Shown: piece by piece, positions 3,301 to 18,939 of the stretch
Layout of the letters: each line of letters starts with the position of its first letter
Position numbering within the stretch: position 1 is the stretch's first letter
Origin: a virus
Strand: one strand, 5' to 3'
Length of the DNA: 29,800 nt
IMG/VR virus record: IMGVR_UViG_3300000117_000154
Location: 1 to 29,800 of that record
Position numbers and translations under genes: made by a program
The notes under the pieces: generated by a model
Seen by the model: the letters and a program-made list of their open reading frames with translations, nothing else
What the model was told of the DNA's origin: nothing
The model's database searches: none

Positions 3301-6300
3301 GAACAGGGTCTTTAAAATTTATCGAAAAACTCCCTGATGCTCCTTTCTTTATAAGAATTAATCAATTATTAGATTCTAGATTCTACTCAAATAATAGTTT
3401 TTATGTGGGAGGTTCTGAGATGTTAATATCAAATACAGGTACATTAACAAGCGGAGTTGTAAATGATATACCTCTCCATGTCGAGCCTCGCCGAGCTGAG
3501 TTTGTTAAATTTTTTGTAGATGGCATTGAAAAAACACCTTCACAATTTACCGTTAATCTTAATTCGACTAATGCTAGAGAGGCTAATATTAATTATACTC
3601 CGTTATCTAGTGAAGTAAATTTTAGAACAAAGATTGATCACTATACTGTTCCAGCAATTGAACTTGGTGATAATGTGGAATTAGCTTTTAATAACACCTA
3701 TAGTGTAACAAAGACCTCTTTTGATCCTGCTAGTCCTACTTATAACGCTGCTCTAACTGCAAATTCTATTTATAGAGTTGAGTTATCAGAGAGTCCAACA
3801 ATCAATGCAATAGGACTAAGTTTTGTAAATATATCTCCAGACATAAGTGGTAATTTAGGCAATATTTCAGGAAATACTGCTACAGTAGACTTTAGCACTA
3901 CAGGTACTCCTAGTATATTTAATTTAGGAAATAATAGAATTTATAATGTAGAAGTAGGTGGAGAATTTGAAAAACTTTTCTTAGCAGAAAATGGCCTAGT
4001 ACAAGATTTAGATGTAGGAACAACATCTATTCGCGCTAGAAACAGAAATGTATTAGGTAGATTAAGCCCTACGACCACTAGATCAATTACTGTCTCAACT
4101 ATTCCAATCAGAAAAGTAACTGGTTTAGCTATTTCTGAATCTTTATATCGTGAGCAAACTGGTGGAGTTGCCATCAGGGCAACTTGTGCGTTTACTCATA
4201 TTGTAGGACAACAAGTAACAGACTATGAAATATCGTATAGATTAGATAATATTGATAATGTGGGAAGTGACGATGGTGGGGCAGATTTAACTGCATTCAA
4301 TACCGTTAAAGTTCCTGCTACAGGTGTTGATGATGACGGAAAAATTAGGTTTACAGTTTCAGGCATAAACAGAGGTCTAAATAGTGACTCAAACTCAATT
4401 CTTTTCAGAATTACTCCTTTGAATAAATCCATTAGAGGAGATACTGCTAGCATTTCTAAAAGTATAATAGGAAAAACAGCAAAACCTAGTAATATATTTA
4501 GTTTTACTGGAGGTCAGAATACTGATCAGATAACTCTTTTGTGGCAATACCCAAGACAAGCTTCAGGAGATTTACTAGACTTAGACTTAAAAGAGGTTGT
4601 AATTAGACGATCTCCAGGATCTATAACTGCAAGCGTTGAGAATTTTGTTGCATCTGACCCCTTAGTAACTGTGTCTGCAGGTACAGCAAGAAAGTCTATT
4701 CCAATTGATACTTTTGGCGAGTTTACTTATTTAGCTAGAACTCGTGATACTAGCGGTAATTTAAGTGATGATGTTGTTAGTATAACTTTAACAACAACTA
4801 GACCAGATAGATCTACTGTGGTAGCTGCTTTTAATGAAGACTCTCCTAGTGTAGCTTTTACTGGTATTACCAATACAAACGCTGGTGAGTCAAACTTTCC
4901 CTCTTTTGCAGATTCTACACAAGGAGGAACTGTTGTAGCTGACGGTAATCAGACAGATAATTCTAATGGAACAGCTAGTGGTTTTTCTGCCATAGGGGGA
5001 TCACCGACCGATTTACTAGCAGTAGATGACGCTACTTATATTACTAAAATTAGAGATTTTGGAGCAACAGTAACTGGGTCTGTTTTTGTGGATTTTACAG
5101 CTTCACAAGAAGTAAAATCAACTTTTAATGATGCGTTTGAAGAAGTTTTGTCAGGTGTGTCAGACGCGTCTGCCCCTAATTCTAATGTTATTAAAGAAAC
5201 AAGCTTTGGAGGTCTAGGAACTGTTCTTGGATTTGCAAATACTACTTTATCGCCTAATCCGAGATTTGATGCAAATAACCAAACTTTAATGACAGGTGGT
5301 GCTAGTGGTAATGTATTTGCAATTCTAAATACAGGTAAATTTACAGGAAACGTAAGTTCTATTACTGCAATAACTAAAGCCTCCACTTCCAGAGTGACAA
5401 CAAGTGGTTCTGAGCACGGAATTGCTAGTACATCGTCTCCAGGTAAACGAGTAATTGTTCATGATGTTGGTGGTATGACTCAAATTAATAATAGAGAGTT
5501 GTTTGCTAAAAGAATTAATGCAACCACTATCGATTTATTTACAGATTCTGGGTTGACGTCAGGTCTTGACTCCTCTGGCTTTGGAACTTTTACAAGTGGT
5601 GGGGTATTAGATGAAGGCGACTACTCAAATTCAAATGCTTACGCTTTTATTGCTGGAACTATTAATGCTGATCACGTTGAGTTAGGAGCATCCTTTTTTG
5701 CTAATGGCGCACCTACTGGTTCAAATGCGTTTGCTAACGTTACAGTTAGTGGAAATGCTTATAAATTAATAAATATGACACAATATTCTGATACTGGAGC
5801 AGCTGAAACATTTTCTGGAACATTAGGGGCAGTTTCTTCACAAGTTTTGATTAGAACAACAACTGCAGATAATAGCGCACTTTACGCTTCAACAGGCACA
5901 AATGATAGAGCTGAGGGAGCAGTACAAACAAGTGAATTTGTCGGATCTTCAGTAAATGATGGTTTTCAAGCATATCAAGCGGGTTCAAGAACTTTTAGAC
6001 AGTTCCAATTAAAAATTATCCTAAACAATTCAAAGCCTAATGAATTTGACTTTACAATTGATAAATTTAGGTATAGTATAGAAAAAGATACAGTAACTTT
6101 TACGGATACAGTTACTTATGACGGTGCGCCCAAAACTGTTTCATTTACAAGTGCAGGTTTTTTAAATAGACCCGCAGTTTCTTATGCAGTTTTAACACAA
6201 CTAGATTCTGTTGCAAACCCTTCTATAGTAGTAACTACAGCTGCTTCAAACCAGTCTGTAAGCTTTAGAATGGTAGCAGCTGACGGTACAGGTGAATATA

Positions 6301-8034: not shown

Positions 8035-9408
8035 ATGTCATTAACAAGAATTACATCAGGAGTTGTTGGTGCTAATGCTATTTCTACAGAGAAACTAGCA
8101 AACGGTGCTATTACTTCAAGACACATAGCAAATACATCTATTGAATTAAAGCACTTAGGTTCTTCCGCTAATCAAGTTGCTGGAATTAATACGATAACAG
8201 CTAATGTTAACACTGTTCAAGCTAATCTTAATATTGTTCAAGCTAATGTTAATGCACAGACAACAAATGTTAATATAGTTTCCGCTAATGTGGGTAACAC
8301 AGTTGCTTTTACAGCTAATGTTGAGGCTAGACGTGTCGCTAATATTGCTGGTGCCATAAGCACTGTTCTTACTGGTGATTTAACGGTGTCAAGAGCTTTA
8401 GTATCTTCTGGAAGCGGTAAAATCGCAGTATCAGCAGTTAGTGCAACAGAACTTGCTCATTTAGACGGCGTATCTTCAGCTATTCAAACACAGTTAAATG
8501 CTGTTGAGGCTAGAAGAGCTGCAAATAATATTGCTACCACTTTCACTGATGATGTTATTGTTACAGGTAACTTGATTGTTAACGGAGACACTACTACTGC
8601 AAATTCCATAAATATGGTTGTCCAAGACCGTATGCTTATGTTAGCTAATTCAGCTACGGGCGCACCAGCTGCTGACGTTGGGTTACTTTTCAACAGAGGT
8701 AACCAAGGTAACGCTGCAATTTTCTATGATGAATCAGCAAAAACATTTAAATTAAGTGACACAAAAGACCCTTCAAGTAACACTTCTTTATCCCCTGTTA
8801 CTGCGTCTAACTTAGATGTCGGCATTGTCACTGCTGCTACTTTAAACGCTACTGCTATAACACAAAATGGTGCTACTTTAGATAATTTAATAGGGTCTAA
8901 TGTTTCTGGAGCTATATCAACTGTAAAATCTACTGATTTAACTGCTTCACGTGCATTAGCATCAAGTGGTTCTGGTAAGATAGAAGTAAGTGCCGTCACA
9001 GCTACTGAATTAGGATACTTAGGTGGAGTAACAGGAGCTATCCAAACTCAGCTAGATGCTAAAGAATCAATCGCGGCATCTGCAGCTAATGACTTTATTA
9101 CTTTTACTAGGTTAAACGCTAATATTAATGTTGTGTCAGGTAACGTTGCATTAGGTTTAACTCAAAAAACAAATGTCATTACAAGTGGCGGAGCAAATAC
9201 TTTTCACATAGCAACCCCTCCTGCTAGTAATCCTACTACTATATCTAATGTTCAGGTGTTCATTGATGGTTTAGTACAAAAACCAAAAACAACAAGTAGT
9301 GATAACGATTATATATACACTGCAGGAAGCGGATTAGTAACAATTACTGATGCTTCTTTACCGTCAGGATTGGCCATTCAAATTACTGCTCTATACCCGC
9401 CTTCCTAA
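8035..9408 (+). CDS. Tail fibre / appendage protein with internal repeats
   Basis: This 457-aa protein has the architecture of marine phage fibres. The N-terminus has the ISTEKLANGAITSRHIANTS pattern common in marine phage fibres. Residues 54-87 hold a run of seven-residue repeats of the type (A/T)N(V/L)Nxxx, consistent with a trimeric stalk. Residues 107-157 and 292-343 are two copies of one repeat: AISTV, DLT-SRAL-SSGSGKI, SAV-ATEL, AIQTQL. Between them is a segment (TGNLIVNGDTTT, then LMLANS and AIFYDESAKTFKL) that resembles beta-structured parts of cyanophage fibres. An AAGGAG-type Shine-Dalgarno precedes the start. The stop codon overlaps the ATG of the radical SAM gene (TAATG), so the two are probably translated together. 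Confidence 0.85.
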   Translation: MSLTRITSGVVGANAISTEKLANGAITSRHIANTSIELKHLGSSANQVAGINTITANVNTVQANLNIVQANVNAQTTNVNIVSANVGNTVAFTANVEARRVANIAGAISTVLTGDLTVSRALVSSGSGKIAVSAVSATELAHLDGVSSAIQTQLNAVEARRAANNIATTFTDDVIVTGNLIVNGDTTTANSINMVVQDRMLMLANSATGAPAADVGLLFNRGNQGNAAIFYDESAKTFKLSDTKDPSSNTSLSPVTASNLDVGIVTAATLNATAITQNGATLDNLIGSNVSGAISTVKSTDLTASRALASSGSGKIEVSAVTATELGYLGGVTGAIQTQLDAKESIAASAANDFITFTRLNANINVVSGNVALGLTQKTNVITSGGANTFHIATPPASNPTTISNVQVFIDGLVQKPKTTSSDNDYIYTAGSGLVTITDASLPSGLAIQITALYPPS

Positions 9409-10403
9409 TGCGACCTATCAGACAACTCACCACAGAATTAACTTTTAGATGCAATGCAAAATGTCCTGCTTGCCATCGTCAAAAGCCTTTATCAGTGGAT
9501 TTAAATGCAAAAAAACATACAATATCCCTAGATAACTTTAAAAAACTATTTTACCCTGAATTACTAAAAAAGATGGAATGGCTAGTTCTTAACGGTAATT
9601 TTGGCGATTCCATAATGAATAAACAATTTAGAGATATCATTTCATATGTCAAAGAGCATGATACTAGAATATTAATTCATACTAATGGAGGTATCCATAA
9701 TCATGACTATTGGACTGACGTTGGTAATATTTTAACAGATAAAGACATTATAAATTTTGATTTAGATGGTTTAGAAGACACCCACCATATTTATCGTATA
9801 AACACTAAATTTGAAAAGGTTTTTAGTAACGCAAAGTCTATTATAGCTACTAACAGGCCTCAAGTTCATTGGAAATATATTGTATTTGAACATAATAAAC
9901 ATCAGGTTGAAAAAGCAAGAAAATTAGCAAATGATAATGGATTTACTACTTTTTCAACAGTTAAAACATCAAGAGATGTTTTTGCACCCTCTACAGGTAA
10001 GTTTGTTCATTCAAAAAAGACCTCTGCTTATAAACAAGCACGAAGAGAAATTCATTGTGTTTGGGATAATTGGGGTAAATGGTATGTTTCTCCTGAAGGT
10101 CTTGTGTTTAGATGTTGTTGGACGGGAGGACACTACTACGATCAAGGTGAAAAACGTTTTTATTACCCTCCTAAGTTTGAACGTATGTTTAACGGATTTC
10201 ATGTTCCCATCGAAAAAATTATAAGTTATGATTATTGGAATAAATTAAGAAATTTTTTAGACGGTTATGAACGATCATTTTCTTTATGTAAATCATCTTG
10301 TGGTAAAATAGTTTCTTCAATAGAAAAGACAGAAGAAAACTTAATAACAGGAGAAACTGTAGTATTCGACTCTAAAAGCAAGGAGACTTCTCGTGTCAGC
10401 TAA
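9408..10403 (+). CDS. Radical SAM enzyme with extra C-terminal cysteines
   Basis: Residues 11-24 contain the radical SAM motif C15-x3-C19-x2-C22 (TFRCNAKCPACHRQ), which binds the 4Fe-4S cluster that cleaves S-adenosylmethionine. The segments LVLNGNFGDS (59-68) and LIHTNGG (89-95) fit the beta-barrel core, although the usual GGEP motif is altered. Cysteines at 217, 236, 237, 294 and 298 (EIHCVWDNWG, VFRCCW, SLCKSSCGK) suggest a SPASM/Twitch-like auxiliary cluster, typical of enzymes that modify peptides or proteins. The substrate is unknown. The gene starts on the last base of the upstream fibre gene and is followed by small peptide genes, so either a fibre or a small protein could be its target. 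That is inference. Confidence 0.87.
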   Translation: MRPIRQLTTELTFRCNAKCPACHRQKPLSVDLNAKKHTISLDNFKKLFYPELLKKMEWLVLNGNFGDSIMNKQFRDIISYVKEHDTRILIHTNGGIHNHDYWTDVGNILTDKDIINFDLDGLEDTHHIYRINTKFEKVFSNAKSIIATNRPQVHWKYIVFEHNKHQVEKARKLANDNGFTTFSTVKTSRDVFAPSTGKFVHSKKTSAYKQARREIHCVWDNWGKWYVSPEGLVFRCCWTGGHYYDQGEKRFYYPPKFERMFNGFHVPIEKIISYDYWNKLRNFLDGYERSFSLCKSSCGKIVSSIEKTEENLITGETVVFDSKSKETSRVS

Positions 10404-10596
10404 AATAGTGAGCAAAGTAGGAAAATTTAAATTTTTAAGATTCCCTAATCGGGGTATTCGCAGAAATGAACGAATTAGAAAACTTGCCACACGCCGAAAA
10501 TTAAGTTATTCTACAATTGAAAAATTAATAAATAAAGAACGTGGTTTAGGTTACCCTATAAAGTATTCTAAACCGATTGGCTTTAAAAAAAACTAA
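10393..10596 (+). CDS. Small basic hypothetical protein (67 aa)
   Basis: The gene starts with GTG at 10393, supported by AGGAG at 10381-10385, 7 bases upstream and inside the end of the radical SAM gene. The protein is very rich in Arg and Lys (KFLRFPNRGIRRNERIRK, LATRRKLSYSTIEKLINKE), which suggests nucleic-acid binding; the second block could form a short helix-turn-helix. I do not recognise the family. Its TAA is followed at once by the riboswitch-like RNA. Confidence 0.65.
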   Translation: MSAKIVSKVGKFKFLRFPNRGIRRNERIRKLATRRKLSYSTIEKLINKERGLGYPIKYSKPIGFKKN

Positions 10597-10645
10597 CGTT
10601 CATCTCACAAGAGACGGAAGTAGGTTTATAAACCGAAGGAACGCA
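10595..10645 (+). promoter_or_regulatory. Glutamine-II (Downstream-peptide / glnA type) riboswitch candidate
   Basis: The stretch carries, in order, the conserved pieces of this RNA family: ACGTTCATCTC, GAGACGGAAGTAGG and CCGAAGGAACGC. P1 pairs CGTTC (10597-10601) with GAACG (10639-10643). P2 pairs TCTC (10603-10606) with GAGA (10611-10614) around an ACAA loop. A third stem pairs GGTT with AACC around TATA (10623-10634). The highly conserved GGAAGTAGG joins P2 and the third stem. The family senses L-glutamine and, in its Downstream-peptide form, lies before genes for short proteins, exactly as here: an 83-aa gene starts 25 bases further on. The match was made by eye from recalled consensus. 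Whether glutamine turns the gene on or off cannot be read from the sequence. Confidence 0.87.
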
Positions 10646-10669
10646 CTTAACTGTAACAGGGAGAGTGTT

Positions 10670-10921
10670 ATGACAAATATAATCGAAACTAAGTTTGGTA
10701 CTTTAGTTAATACAAAAAAGATAGCAGCAGGAAGTGCCTCTAGCATAAAAAAATCTGGAGCATTTTATAACTTCTCTATCAGAGTAACAAATGACGACAT
10801 AAGAGAATACTCATTTACAGATCTTGCAAGAGCTGAATATATGAGAAGAATTATGATCGGTCATTTAGAAGAAAAAATTAAAAAGGAATCAAAGAGTATT
10901 CCTAAAACTACTGTGGCATAA
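10670..10921 (+). CDS. Small protein under the glutamine riboswitch candidate (83 aa)
   Basis: The start chosen is the ATG at 10670, with AGGGAG at 10658-10663 six bases upstream. A longer frame from TTG at 10577 would run through the riboswitch and is rejected. The protein has a basic N-terminal half (NTKKIAAGSASSIKKSGAFY), then a beta-strand-like stretch (FSIRVTNDDIREYSF), then a helix (DLARAEYMRRIMIGHLEEKI) and a Lys-rich tail. I do not recognise the family. In cyanobacteria, genes behind this riboswitch class can encode small inhibitors of glutamine synthetase. The small size and basic charge here would fit such a role, but no clear sequence match is visible. Confidence 0.8.
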   Translation: MTNIIETKFGTLVNTKKIAAGSASSIKKSGAFYNFSIRVTNDDIREYSFTDLARAEYMRRIMIGHLEEKIKKESKSIPKTTVA

Positions 10922-10963
10922 AAAATAGATTTTCAAAAGACCCACGTTTATAAGGAATCTAAC

Positions 10964-11305
10964 ATGAAAAATAATAAAGATGGTCATACTGACGTTGCTT
11001 CTGCTAGAAGGCAGTGCGCAAATATAATCGAAGATTGTCAGGATATGCTGAAGGCTTTACCTGATGATAGCGAAGCTTCACTACCTACGTGGTGGACTAA
11101 CAAACTTGCTGTATCAGCTGCTTATATTAATTCTGATAGAGATTACTTAGTTTATACTATGCAACAAAATTCTGAAGAAGAAACCTCTGAAGAGCCTGTT
11201 GTAGTTGATGATGATCAGCGAATGACAATAAATTTTACAGTAGATGAAGATGATATGACACCTCCATCTGCTAAAATGGTTAAAGAAACAGATAATGCCT
11301 CTTAA
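10964..11305 (+). CDS. Acidic hypothetical phage protein (113 aa)
   Basis: The middle carries ASLPTWWTNKLAVSAAYINS followed by DRDYLVY, a block I associate with small conserved proteins of marine T4-like phages. The C-terminal third is very acidic (EEETSEEPVVVDDDQ). AAGGA lies 7 bases before the ATG. Function is not known. The next gene starts inside its last codons, so the two are translationally coupled. A virion or head-related role is suggested by neighbours only. Confidence 0.75.
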   Translation: MKNNKDGHTDVASARRQCANIIEDCQDMLKALPDDSEASLPTWWTNKLAVSAAYINSDRDYLVYTMQQNSEEETSEEPVVVDDDQRMTINFTVDEDDMTPPSAKMVKETDNAS

Positions 11306-11498
11306 AAAAGGTAAATCTCAAAAAACCATTTCAACAAATATAAAAGAGCTTATGAAAAACCCCTCTAAAGCTCGTTCTAAGGGTATCGGTACTCTTGCTA
11401 AAAAACAAGGTATCACACGTAAACAGGCTCACCGTCGTCAAGCAGTTGCAATCGCACTTAGAGCGGCAGGTAAACCTCGTATAAAACGTAAAAAATAA
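11295..11498 (+). CDS. Small basic phage protein (67 aa)
   Basis: A highly basic protein beginning MPLKKGKSQKTISTNIKELM and ending QAVAIALRAAGKPRIKRKK. The pairing of 'PLKKGKS-KTIS-NI' with 'QAVAIAL--AGK' recurs in small proteins of marine phages, usually near structural genes; function unknown. The chain is mostly helical with a central KKQGITRKQAHRR segment, consistent with nucleic-acid binding. It overlaps the end of the preceding acidic gene by 11 bases, so an acidic and a basic small protein are made as a coupled pair. Confidence 0.77.
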   Translation: MPLKKGKSQKTISTNIKELMKNPSKARSKGIGTLAKKQGITRKQAHRRQAVAIALRAAGKPRIKRKK

Positions 11499-11501
11499 AT
11501 T

Positions 11502-11542
11502 TTGACACATAATTGATTATCTGTGAAAATATACTATAAATA
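11502..11542 (+). promoter_or_regulatory. Promoter region of the 215-aa structural gene
   Basis: Two alternative signals lie in this 65-base gap. One is TTGACA at 11502-11507 with a weak -10, GAAAAT at 11525-11530, at 17-base spacing (4 of 6 matches). The other is TATAAATA at 11535-11542, identical to the T4 late promoter core, 21 bases before the ATG. Both precede a strong AAGGAG (11551-11556). TATAAATA can occur by chance in DNA this AT-rich, so which signal is used is open. Confidence 0.5.
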
Positions 11543-11563
11543 ATCTTTCTAAGGAGAAGAACT

Positions 11564-12211
11564 ATGGCATTAGTCTATAACATCGGTGGCCCTAACTCAA
11601 ACTTTTCAACAATTGCAGAAATTGATTCTACAACTTTGACTCAGGGCGATAACACAATACAAATATACCCAGGTACTCACGCAGCCCCAACTTCTATTAC
11701 TGCTTCTAACATTGCTTTTAAAGGCATGGGAGATCGCGACGACGTAATTATTGATGGTGCAGCTGGAGCAGCGCTTGGCGTCACTTTAAGTGATAGTTGC
11801 TCAGGCACAATTACTTTCGAAAACTTAACAATTAAAGGACAAGATAACGTACTTACTGGAAATCCAGCAGGTGCTAACGCTGCTATTACTAAATCAGGTA
11901 ATGACGACGTAAAACTTGTTTTCCGTAACTGTAAGTTCACTAACGCAGAACATGCTGTTATTCATAACGGTATTCATGCTAACGCGCTTGGCGTAAACCA
12001 AGTTGAAATGCATTATTGTCAAGCTGACGTGGATAAAGCAATCGTTTCAAATTCAAACGTATTTGCAACATATTCACTTTTTGGTGCAAACGCATATCAT
12101 ACAGCAGCAGGAGCTGCAACTCCATCAACAGCTATTAAAACAATGTTGTGTGGACCAAACACTGCAAACGTTGGTAACTCAACTGAAACAATACTTGCAA
12201 CAATTGCATAA
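11564..12211 (+). CDS. Beta-helix-like structural protein (215 aa)
   Basis: The sequence shows short beta-strand repeats ending in Asn/Asp/Gly turns (ASNIAFKGMGDRDDVIIDGA, GTITFENLTIKG, KLVFRNCKFTNAEHAVIHNG, QVEMHYCQADVDKAIVSNSN), the pattern of a right-handed parallel beta-helix. It lacks obvious catalytic residues of pectate lyases or depolymerases and is short, so a decoration or appendage role is more likely than an enzyme. It has the best expression signals in the window: its own promoter-like region and AAGGAG at 7-base spacing. It is therefore probably an abundant virion protein. The exact role is not determined. Confidence 0.77.
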   Translation: MALVYNIGGPNSNFSTIAEIDSTTLTQGDNTIQIYPGTHAAPTSITASNIAFKGMGDRDDVIIDGAAGAALGVTLSDSCSGTITFENLTIKGQDNVLTGNPAGANAAITKSGNDDVKLVFRNCKFTNAEHAVIHNGIHANALGVNQVEMHYCQADVDKAIVSNSNVFATYSLFGANAYHTAAGAATPSTAIKTMLCGPNTANVGNSTETILATIA

Positions 12212-18867: not shown

Positions 18868-18939
18868 TGGAGGAGCTGGGGGATTCGAACCTCCATCTCC
18901 AGAGTAAATCTGGCGCATTCCCAAAATGCTACTAGCCCC
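18868..18939 (-). tRNA. tRNA-like gene, anticodon unclear
   Basis: Reading the minus strand there are an acceptor pairing GGGGCT with AGCTCC, a D-arm (GCAT, TTTGGGA, ATGC), an anticodon arm (CCAG, loop ATTTACT, CTGG), a T-arm GGAGG-TTCGAAT-CCCCC with one A-C mismatch, and an encoded CCA end. The total is 72 bases, slightly short, with a small variable region and a pyrimidine at position 37. Counting the loop in the standard way gives anticodon UUA (would read the UAA stop); a one-base shift gives UAC (Val). Neither is convincing. It may be a degenerate tRNA or an unusual one. It lies between the SNase-like and SGNH-like genes on the same strand. Confidence 0.72.

Follow-up and report, generated by a model that had tools for sequence, protein, structure and literature searches.

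Why would a virus carry a glutamine-sensing RNA, and which gene would such an RNA control? The question is raised by a 29.8-kb virus fragment from IMG/VR (hereafter the window, meaning the whole stretch of DNA that was analysed), in which a candidate riboswitch is located between a basic 67-aa ORF and an 83-aa ORF. The genes of the window include a leftward block of replication and nucleotide genes (ThyX, exonuclease, RusA, PhoH, MazG, NrdA/B and SbcC/D) and a rightward block with tail genes (a 2001-aa lambda-J-type tail protein, a tail collar protein and a virion structural protein), a radical SAM gene and small genes. The riboswitch and the 83-aa gene are located where the rightward tail module ends, in agreement with the initial annotation, which had placed them inside the virion region. 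The explanation that we favor, and consider likely as a whole, is that the phage, probably one of SAR116 Alphaproteobacteria, has a glutamine-I riboswitch within its rightward tail-module transcript, and that this RNA would work as an ON switch for the translation of a small gene that the phage obtained from its host. The radical SAM gene, located at the tail operon's end about 200 bases 5' of the riboswitch, is SPASM-like, with matches below the NCBIfam cut-offs to SPASM-type maturases.

The RNA had initially been described as a glutamine-II riboswitch with three consistent stems, to be checked with both Rfam models in Infernal. That it belongs to a glutamine riboswitch was borne out, whereas the class label had to be exchanged: cmscan matched the glutamine-I model RF01739 well above its threshold (62.1 bits; gathering score 35), covering model positions 1-53 of 53 with zero non-standard pairs, and the glutamine-II model RF01704 gave no match in the whole window, even at E ≤ 1. 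Glutamine-II RNAs (Downstream-peptide RNA) sense the same ligand and precede ORFs of 17-100 aa in cyanobacteria, but they have a pseudoknot architecture, and this class is ruled out by the lack of an RF01704 match. When RF01739 was searched alone as a single family, the E-value was 2.8e-15. Only one other family, a weak tRNA match, reached E ≤ 1 in the window, which excludes chance as an explanation for the RF01739 match. The tRNA-like match itself (18872-18938, minus strand; 33.3 bits against a cut-off of 29) overlaps a predicted ORF, and no tRNA was found there by ARAGORN.

The pairs of P1, P2 and P3 were all confirmed, as was a three-way junction with an E-loop strand, and P1 starts immediately after the TAA of the 67-aa ORF (10594-10596). 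In the crystal numbering, which we assigned from the sequence and the text of two structural papers (PMC5393176; PMC6698751), the conserved ligand contacts C1, G22, G23, C58, G59 and C60 are all kept, as C10597, G10616, G10617, C10642, G10643 and C10644. G22 and G23, which form the ligand-induced long-range contacts, lie within the conserved CGGAAGUA strand (Table 1). Judged by its sequence, the RNA is a true member of the known glutamine-I class, and the window copy would be expected to bind glutamine.

Table 1. Features of the riboswitch locus, in window coordinates.
Feature	Position	Strand	Evidence or remark
Radical SAM protein	9408..10403	+	upstream, co-directional; phrog_21308, E 2.4e-28
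Basic 67-aa ORF	10393..10596	+	directly 5' of riboswitch; 87.5% aa identity to L304:15964-16155; kept beside riboswitch in L088 phage
Glutamine-I (glnA RNA, RF01739) aptamer	10595..10647	+	cmscan 62.1 bits, E 1.2e-11
P1 stem	10597-10601/10639-10643	+	pairs checked
P2 stem	10603-10606/10611-10614	+	pairs checked
Conserved CGGAAGUA strand	10615..10622	+	invariant in 13 aligned leaders
P3 stem	10623-10626/10631-10634	+	pairs checked
Shine-Dalgarno-burying hairpin, proposed expression platform	10643..10668	+	RNAfold; arm covariation across phage leaders
Shine-Dalgarno AGGGAG	10658..10663	+	sequence; G10659, G10660 and G10663 mostly paired in predicted hairpin
83-aa regulated protein, SAR116 chromosomal family	10670..10921	+	dN/dS 0.03-0.08; homologues in IMG/VR and SAR116 order
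113-aa ORF	10964..11305	+	downstream; conserved flank of exchange; 75% aa identity in L088 phage

The 83-aa gene is most likely the one that the riboswitch controls. As first described, the RNA lies straight after the stop of the 67-aa ORF and before an 83-aa ORF with its own AGGGAG, the start of which (10670) is 25 nt from the last C of the aptamer (10644). The low dN/dS of this frame in comparisons with its homologues in phages and hosts indicates strong purifying selection, and thus a real gene. The RNA has the position of a 5' leader, and a co-varying hairpin at the Shine-Dalgarno sequence provides a candidate expression platform, as discussed below.

No Pfam or NCBIfam family was found for the protein, and a PDB sequence search gave a chance match only. 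An AlphaFold2 model with a mean pLDDT of 71.6 contains strands and a helix at residues 19-75 and an unreliable N-terminus, and a Foldseek search with this model against BFVD and PDB returned nothing at E ≤ 0.001. The initial annotation had hinted at a glutamine synthetase inactivating factor and suggested structure prediction as a check; neither Pfam, NCBIfam, PDB nor Foldseek provided such a link, no confident relative came out of the structural comparison, and a role for the protein as a glutamine synthetase inhibitor is not supported. Membership in IF7/IF17 or DUF4278 was rejected, as no Pfam or NCBIfam family matched; for comparison, a cyanobacterial IF7-like protein matches NF052599 below the cut-off and one small phage ORF matches DUF4278 above the cut-off. 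A match to phrog_14733, a family of unknown function, was set aside at E 0.002-0.004. The first impression that the product matches nothing recognisable has been superseded, in that it is a conserved protein of SAR116 chromosomes.

Of the 136 genomes of the SAR116 order, 42 encode the family (about 90% aa identity, dN/dS about 0.04). The order was recognised via two members called SAR116 cluster (L184, G018; L258, G025); among 289 genomes spread over the class to which it belongs, the family was found in only 3. The host copies occur in chromosomal contexts that are common to several genomes. Judging by sequence, we take the neighbours at one type of locus to be DNA polymerase I, an ABC transporter, GIY-YIG and a 114-aa gene, while the other type is presumably situated between YajQ and photolyase-like genes. 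Two copies about 6-9 kb apart were observed in two SAR116-order genomes (L344, 4537-4779 and 13419-13655, minus strand; G340, contig 39). No riboswitch was found within 200 nt upstream of the host copies (L309-L342, two of which could not be parsed), and RF01739 was present in only 9 of the 136 genomes, which indicates that the SAR116 hosts mostly do without the glutamine-I signal themselves.

Relatives of the 83-aa gene are also encoded by 57 IMG/VR stretches. In clade A (L002-L007) the riboswitch is located directly upstream of the homologue; in clade B (about 50 stretches) the gene is preceded by another reading frame, and no riboswitch stands directly before it. Clade A groups with two host copies (L314 and L320) with a bootstrap value of 98, and this grouping of phage with SAR116 copies makes SAR116 the likely host of the window phage. 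The alphaproteobacterial tmRNA in the L002 phage fits an alphaproteobacterial host. A transfer of the gene from host to phage is favored by these patterns, but monophyly of the phage copies was not rejected (AU p 0.24) and would allow other numbers and directions of transfer. Host identity, this transfer and a part played by the protein in the nitrogen physiology of the host are inferences. No isolate phages with the 83-aa protein or with near-identical DNA were found, and the nearest isolates for NrdA (best about 61% identity) and the J protein (best about 26%) were uninformative as host clues.

How general is the pairing of this switch with a small gene? A pattern scan of IMG/VR yielded at least 120 stretches and at least 111 non-redundant riboswitches, with a callable ORF in 106. 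Among the matches listed, the first ORF with a ribosome site was at most 83 aa long in 106 of 106 phage copies (median 45), a few of these calls probably being wrong frames. This result was not forced by the procedure, since a looser version of the same first-ORF rule gave ORFs longer than 140 aa in 56 of 119 cellular copies. In the marine proteobacteria, these large ORFs often seem to be amtB-like or glnA-like, as judged by reading the sequences. Our findings suggest that phage glutamine-I riboswitches lead microproteins as a general rule, often ones too small for annotation. The regulated phage families include YRG peptides, one of which scored above the DUF4278 cut-off and one just below, DUF4278 being a domain common to cyanobacterial IF17 (PMC6316151). 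A T4-like late promoter (NATAAATA) was present at most 45 nt upstream of the riboswitch in 37 of the 111 phage copies listed, as compared to 1.6% of control positions; no such promoter was found near the window riboswitch.

These promoters, together with the terminal position of the 83-aa gene in the tail module, could be taken to mean that the riboswitch is a late-timing device, for which the use of glutamine in virion synthesis would serve as a clock, and that the 83-aa protein acts on assembly or lysis and not on host nitrogen. A lysis-timing idea has in fact been put forward for the phage Melnitz (PMC9004378). However, the family to which the 83-aa protein belongs is conserved on chromosomes of the SAR116 order and is not a virion family, and the DUF4278 members among the genes regulated in other phages point to the cyanobacterial IF17 domain. 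We consider a timing role rather unlikely.

The way in which glutamine could act on this gene is indicated by the hairpin that buries the ribosome site. Two of its bases, G10643 (G59) and C10644 (C60), also belong to the aptamer, and the energy that RNAfold predicts for the hairpin is -7.6 kcal/mol when folded from G59, -6.1 from C60 and -3.6 without either, making the overlap worth 4 kcal/mol in the model. Most phage leaders have such a hairpin with the ribosome site directly 3' of P1, the CACCA, CAAAT and CCAGA leader types being the ones in which it is missing. The two arms co-vary: when each 5' arm was taken with its ribosome-site segment, 29 of the 53 distinct combinations were fully pairable, versus 13.7 ± 2.1 after shuffling of partners (5000 shuffles, maximum 22), and the start of the segment pairs with its own 3' half in 81% of 101 phage leaders. 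In the cyanobacterial small-protein leaders (IF7-like and DUF4278), which read ...GAACG-CGCCTC...GAGGCG-ATG, the Shine-Dalgarno hairpin likewise starts from C60.

In the glutamine-bound crystal, C60 is paired with G23, a base that, like G22, is disordered when the ligand is absent (PMC5393176), and G59 pairs with C1 and contacts the glutamine (PMC6698751). We hypothesize that at low glutamine levels G59 and C60, at the 3' edge of the aptamer, pair into the hairpin GCACUU...GAGUGU, so that AGGGAG is buried. Bound glutamine would instead hold G59 in C1-G59 and C60 in the long-range pair G23-C60, the hairpin would weaken from -7.6 to -3.6 kcal/mol, and the 83-aa protein would be made. A translational ON switch is the most likely mode of action, given the overlap of G59 and C60 with the hairpin, the lack of any intrinsic terminator at 9300-11600 and the activation of expression reported for both glutamine riboswitch classes (PMC6316151), the direction being a deduction from these points. 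According to the free-energy model, P1 and the hairpin coexist if C60 is free, which implies a modest destabilisation and not a clean two-state swap, and the switch may be graded.

The adjacency of P1 and the hairpin, which are able to form together, could also serve the opposite purpose: glutamine would stabilise P1, P1 would stack on the hairpin, the ribosome site would be locked and the protein would be made when glutamine is scarce. Such an OFF switch would be in line with the many proteobacterial aptamers that precede amtB or glnA, genes that are expected to be glutamine-repressed. Yet, those leaders lack this hairpin, and the geometry in the phage matches that of the cyanobacterial small-protein leaders, which are reported to be ON. 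Moreover, the first base of the hairpin, C60, is used by the ligand-induced G23-C60 pair. We regard an OFF switch as improbable and retain the ON switch.

Comparisons of phage genomes show that the riboswitch and the gene beneath it are exchanged. One contig (L088, G004) is collinear with the window: apart from the 83-aa gene, all genes tested have about 60-94% aa identity, among them the upstream 67-aa gene and the downstream 113-aa gene; at the nucleotide level, the identity is 85% for the 67-aa gene, 77% for the riboswitch and 76% for the 113-aa gene. The 83-aa gene is absent from this phage and an unrelated 49-aa ORF takes its place under the riboswitch. Five other phages (L002, L003, L004, L006 and L007) have the riboswitch and the 83-aa gene in common with the window and essentially no other window gene in the stretches compared, apart from an NrdA match of 21% identity (L002). 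The phages with this pair include a UvsX-bearing phage and a 328-kb contig. One small gene has thus been replaced by another beneath a switch that stayed in place, and switch and gene also move jointly between phage backgrounds; the two behave as a cassette that marine phages exchange. What is new here is the arrangement, in which a glutamine switch in a phage that probably infects SAR116 stands before an exchangeable small gene of host origin.

Phage genes travel with their leaders, and since the switch function is a predicted one, the RNA could also be an inherited leader with no present regulatory effect. This is very improbable, as every ligand-contact position is kept and the helices vary in a compensatory way: in L002 the closing pair of P1 is doubly changed (from CGTTC/GAACG to CGTTG/CAACG), and the RNA still scores 42.9 bits. 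In addition, riboswitch and gene have stayed side by side in the clade A phages, which are unrelated to that of the window, and the riboswitch stays when the gene is swapped. That part of the RNA instead encodes an in-frame N-terminal extension, the frame being open through the riboswitch (a 114-aa TTG ORF, 10577-10921), can be dismissed because the distance from GAACGC to ATG, 25 nt in the window, is 27 nt in L002, 25 nt in L003 and 24 nt in L004, differences of one or two bases with which the frame is not kept, and because the host homologues begin at the same Met as the 83-aa protein.

Glutamine riboswitches have previously been described in phages, namely in T4-like cyanophages, Melnitz, Mosig and AG-345-P14 (PMC9004378; PMC9602691; PMC9964418). 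The riboswitches of Melnitz, Mosig and the cyanophages are of the same RNA class as that of the window, and between the window and Melnitz leaders the identity is 84% along 62 nt that extend through the ribosome site; the window phage differs from these phages by its lambda-J-type tail protein and SAR116-type gene. The window riboswitch leads a small ORF, whereas the authors on Melnitz concluded that theirs controls the tmRNA (PMC9004378). In the Melnitz genome (MZ577097.1; L179), a permuted tmRNA of alphaproteobacterial type (3559-3976) is followed by the riboswitch (3984-4032) and, directly behind it, by an unannotated 32-aa ORF from 4055 with its own ribosome site (L179:3984-4153). The riboswitch is thus located 3' of the tmRNA and before a small ORF, as in the other phage copies surveyed, which makes the published assignment doubtful and opens the Melnitz case to re-reading. 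Among cellular systems, the gifB leader of Synechocystis (glutamine-I, RF01739) resembles the window in its aptamer, its conserved contacts and its small downstream protein gene. The window copy differs from the cyanobacterial ones in residing on a phage genome and in leading a SAR116-family product with no detected relation to IF7, IF17 or DUF4278. A literature search for SAR116 and riboswitches, by title and abstract, gave nothing on glutamine.

Riboswitches in phages have mostly been noted as curiosities with unclear targets. In this case, the target belongs to the conserved chromosomal genes of the likely host, and it points to SAR116, a group with few known phages. It is plausible that the phage tunes host nitrogen metabolism, and the locus offers a concrete test case for whether phages read the nitrogen state of their hosts, as is also suggested by the many ocean phages with the same switch before exchangeable tiny proteins. 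We tentatively propose that marine phages of cyanobacteria, OM43, SAR116 and probably SAR86 possess a mobile two-part device, consisting of a constant glutamine-I riboswitch with the common Shine-Dalgarno hairpin and a swappable microprotein taken from the host, which, depending on the glutamine level, would release a small protein that regulates nitrogen or central metabolism of the host. If so, infection would respond to the glutamine level of the host.

Glutamine-I riboswitches were also common, and often in tandem, in contigs titled SAR86, SAR116 and other marine Proteobacteria (L183-L301). They often precede the amtB-like and glnA-like genes mentioned above, contrary to a review in which glutamine riboswitches are restricted to cyanobacteria (PMC6316151) and in agreement with what Weinberg et al. 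(PMC2864571) described from environmental sequences. In SAR86 chromosomal contigs (L250, of 482 kb, L249, L263 and L291), riboswitches lead small ORFs that end in FFPYYL/NPFYP, like those of one phage family, which suggests a host source for phage microproteins of this type. Finally, 17-aa peptides of the form MKEVTLVYRGVKYTK(R/K)V were observed directly under the riboswitch in three phage stretches (L062, L065 and L070), and may represent a minimal DUF4278-like product.
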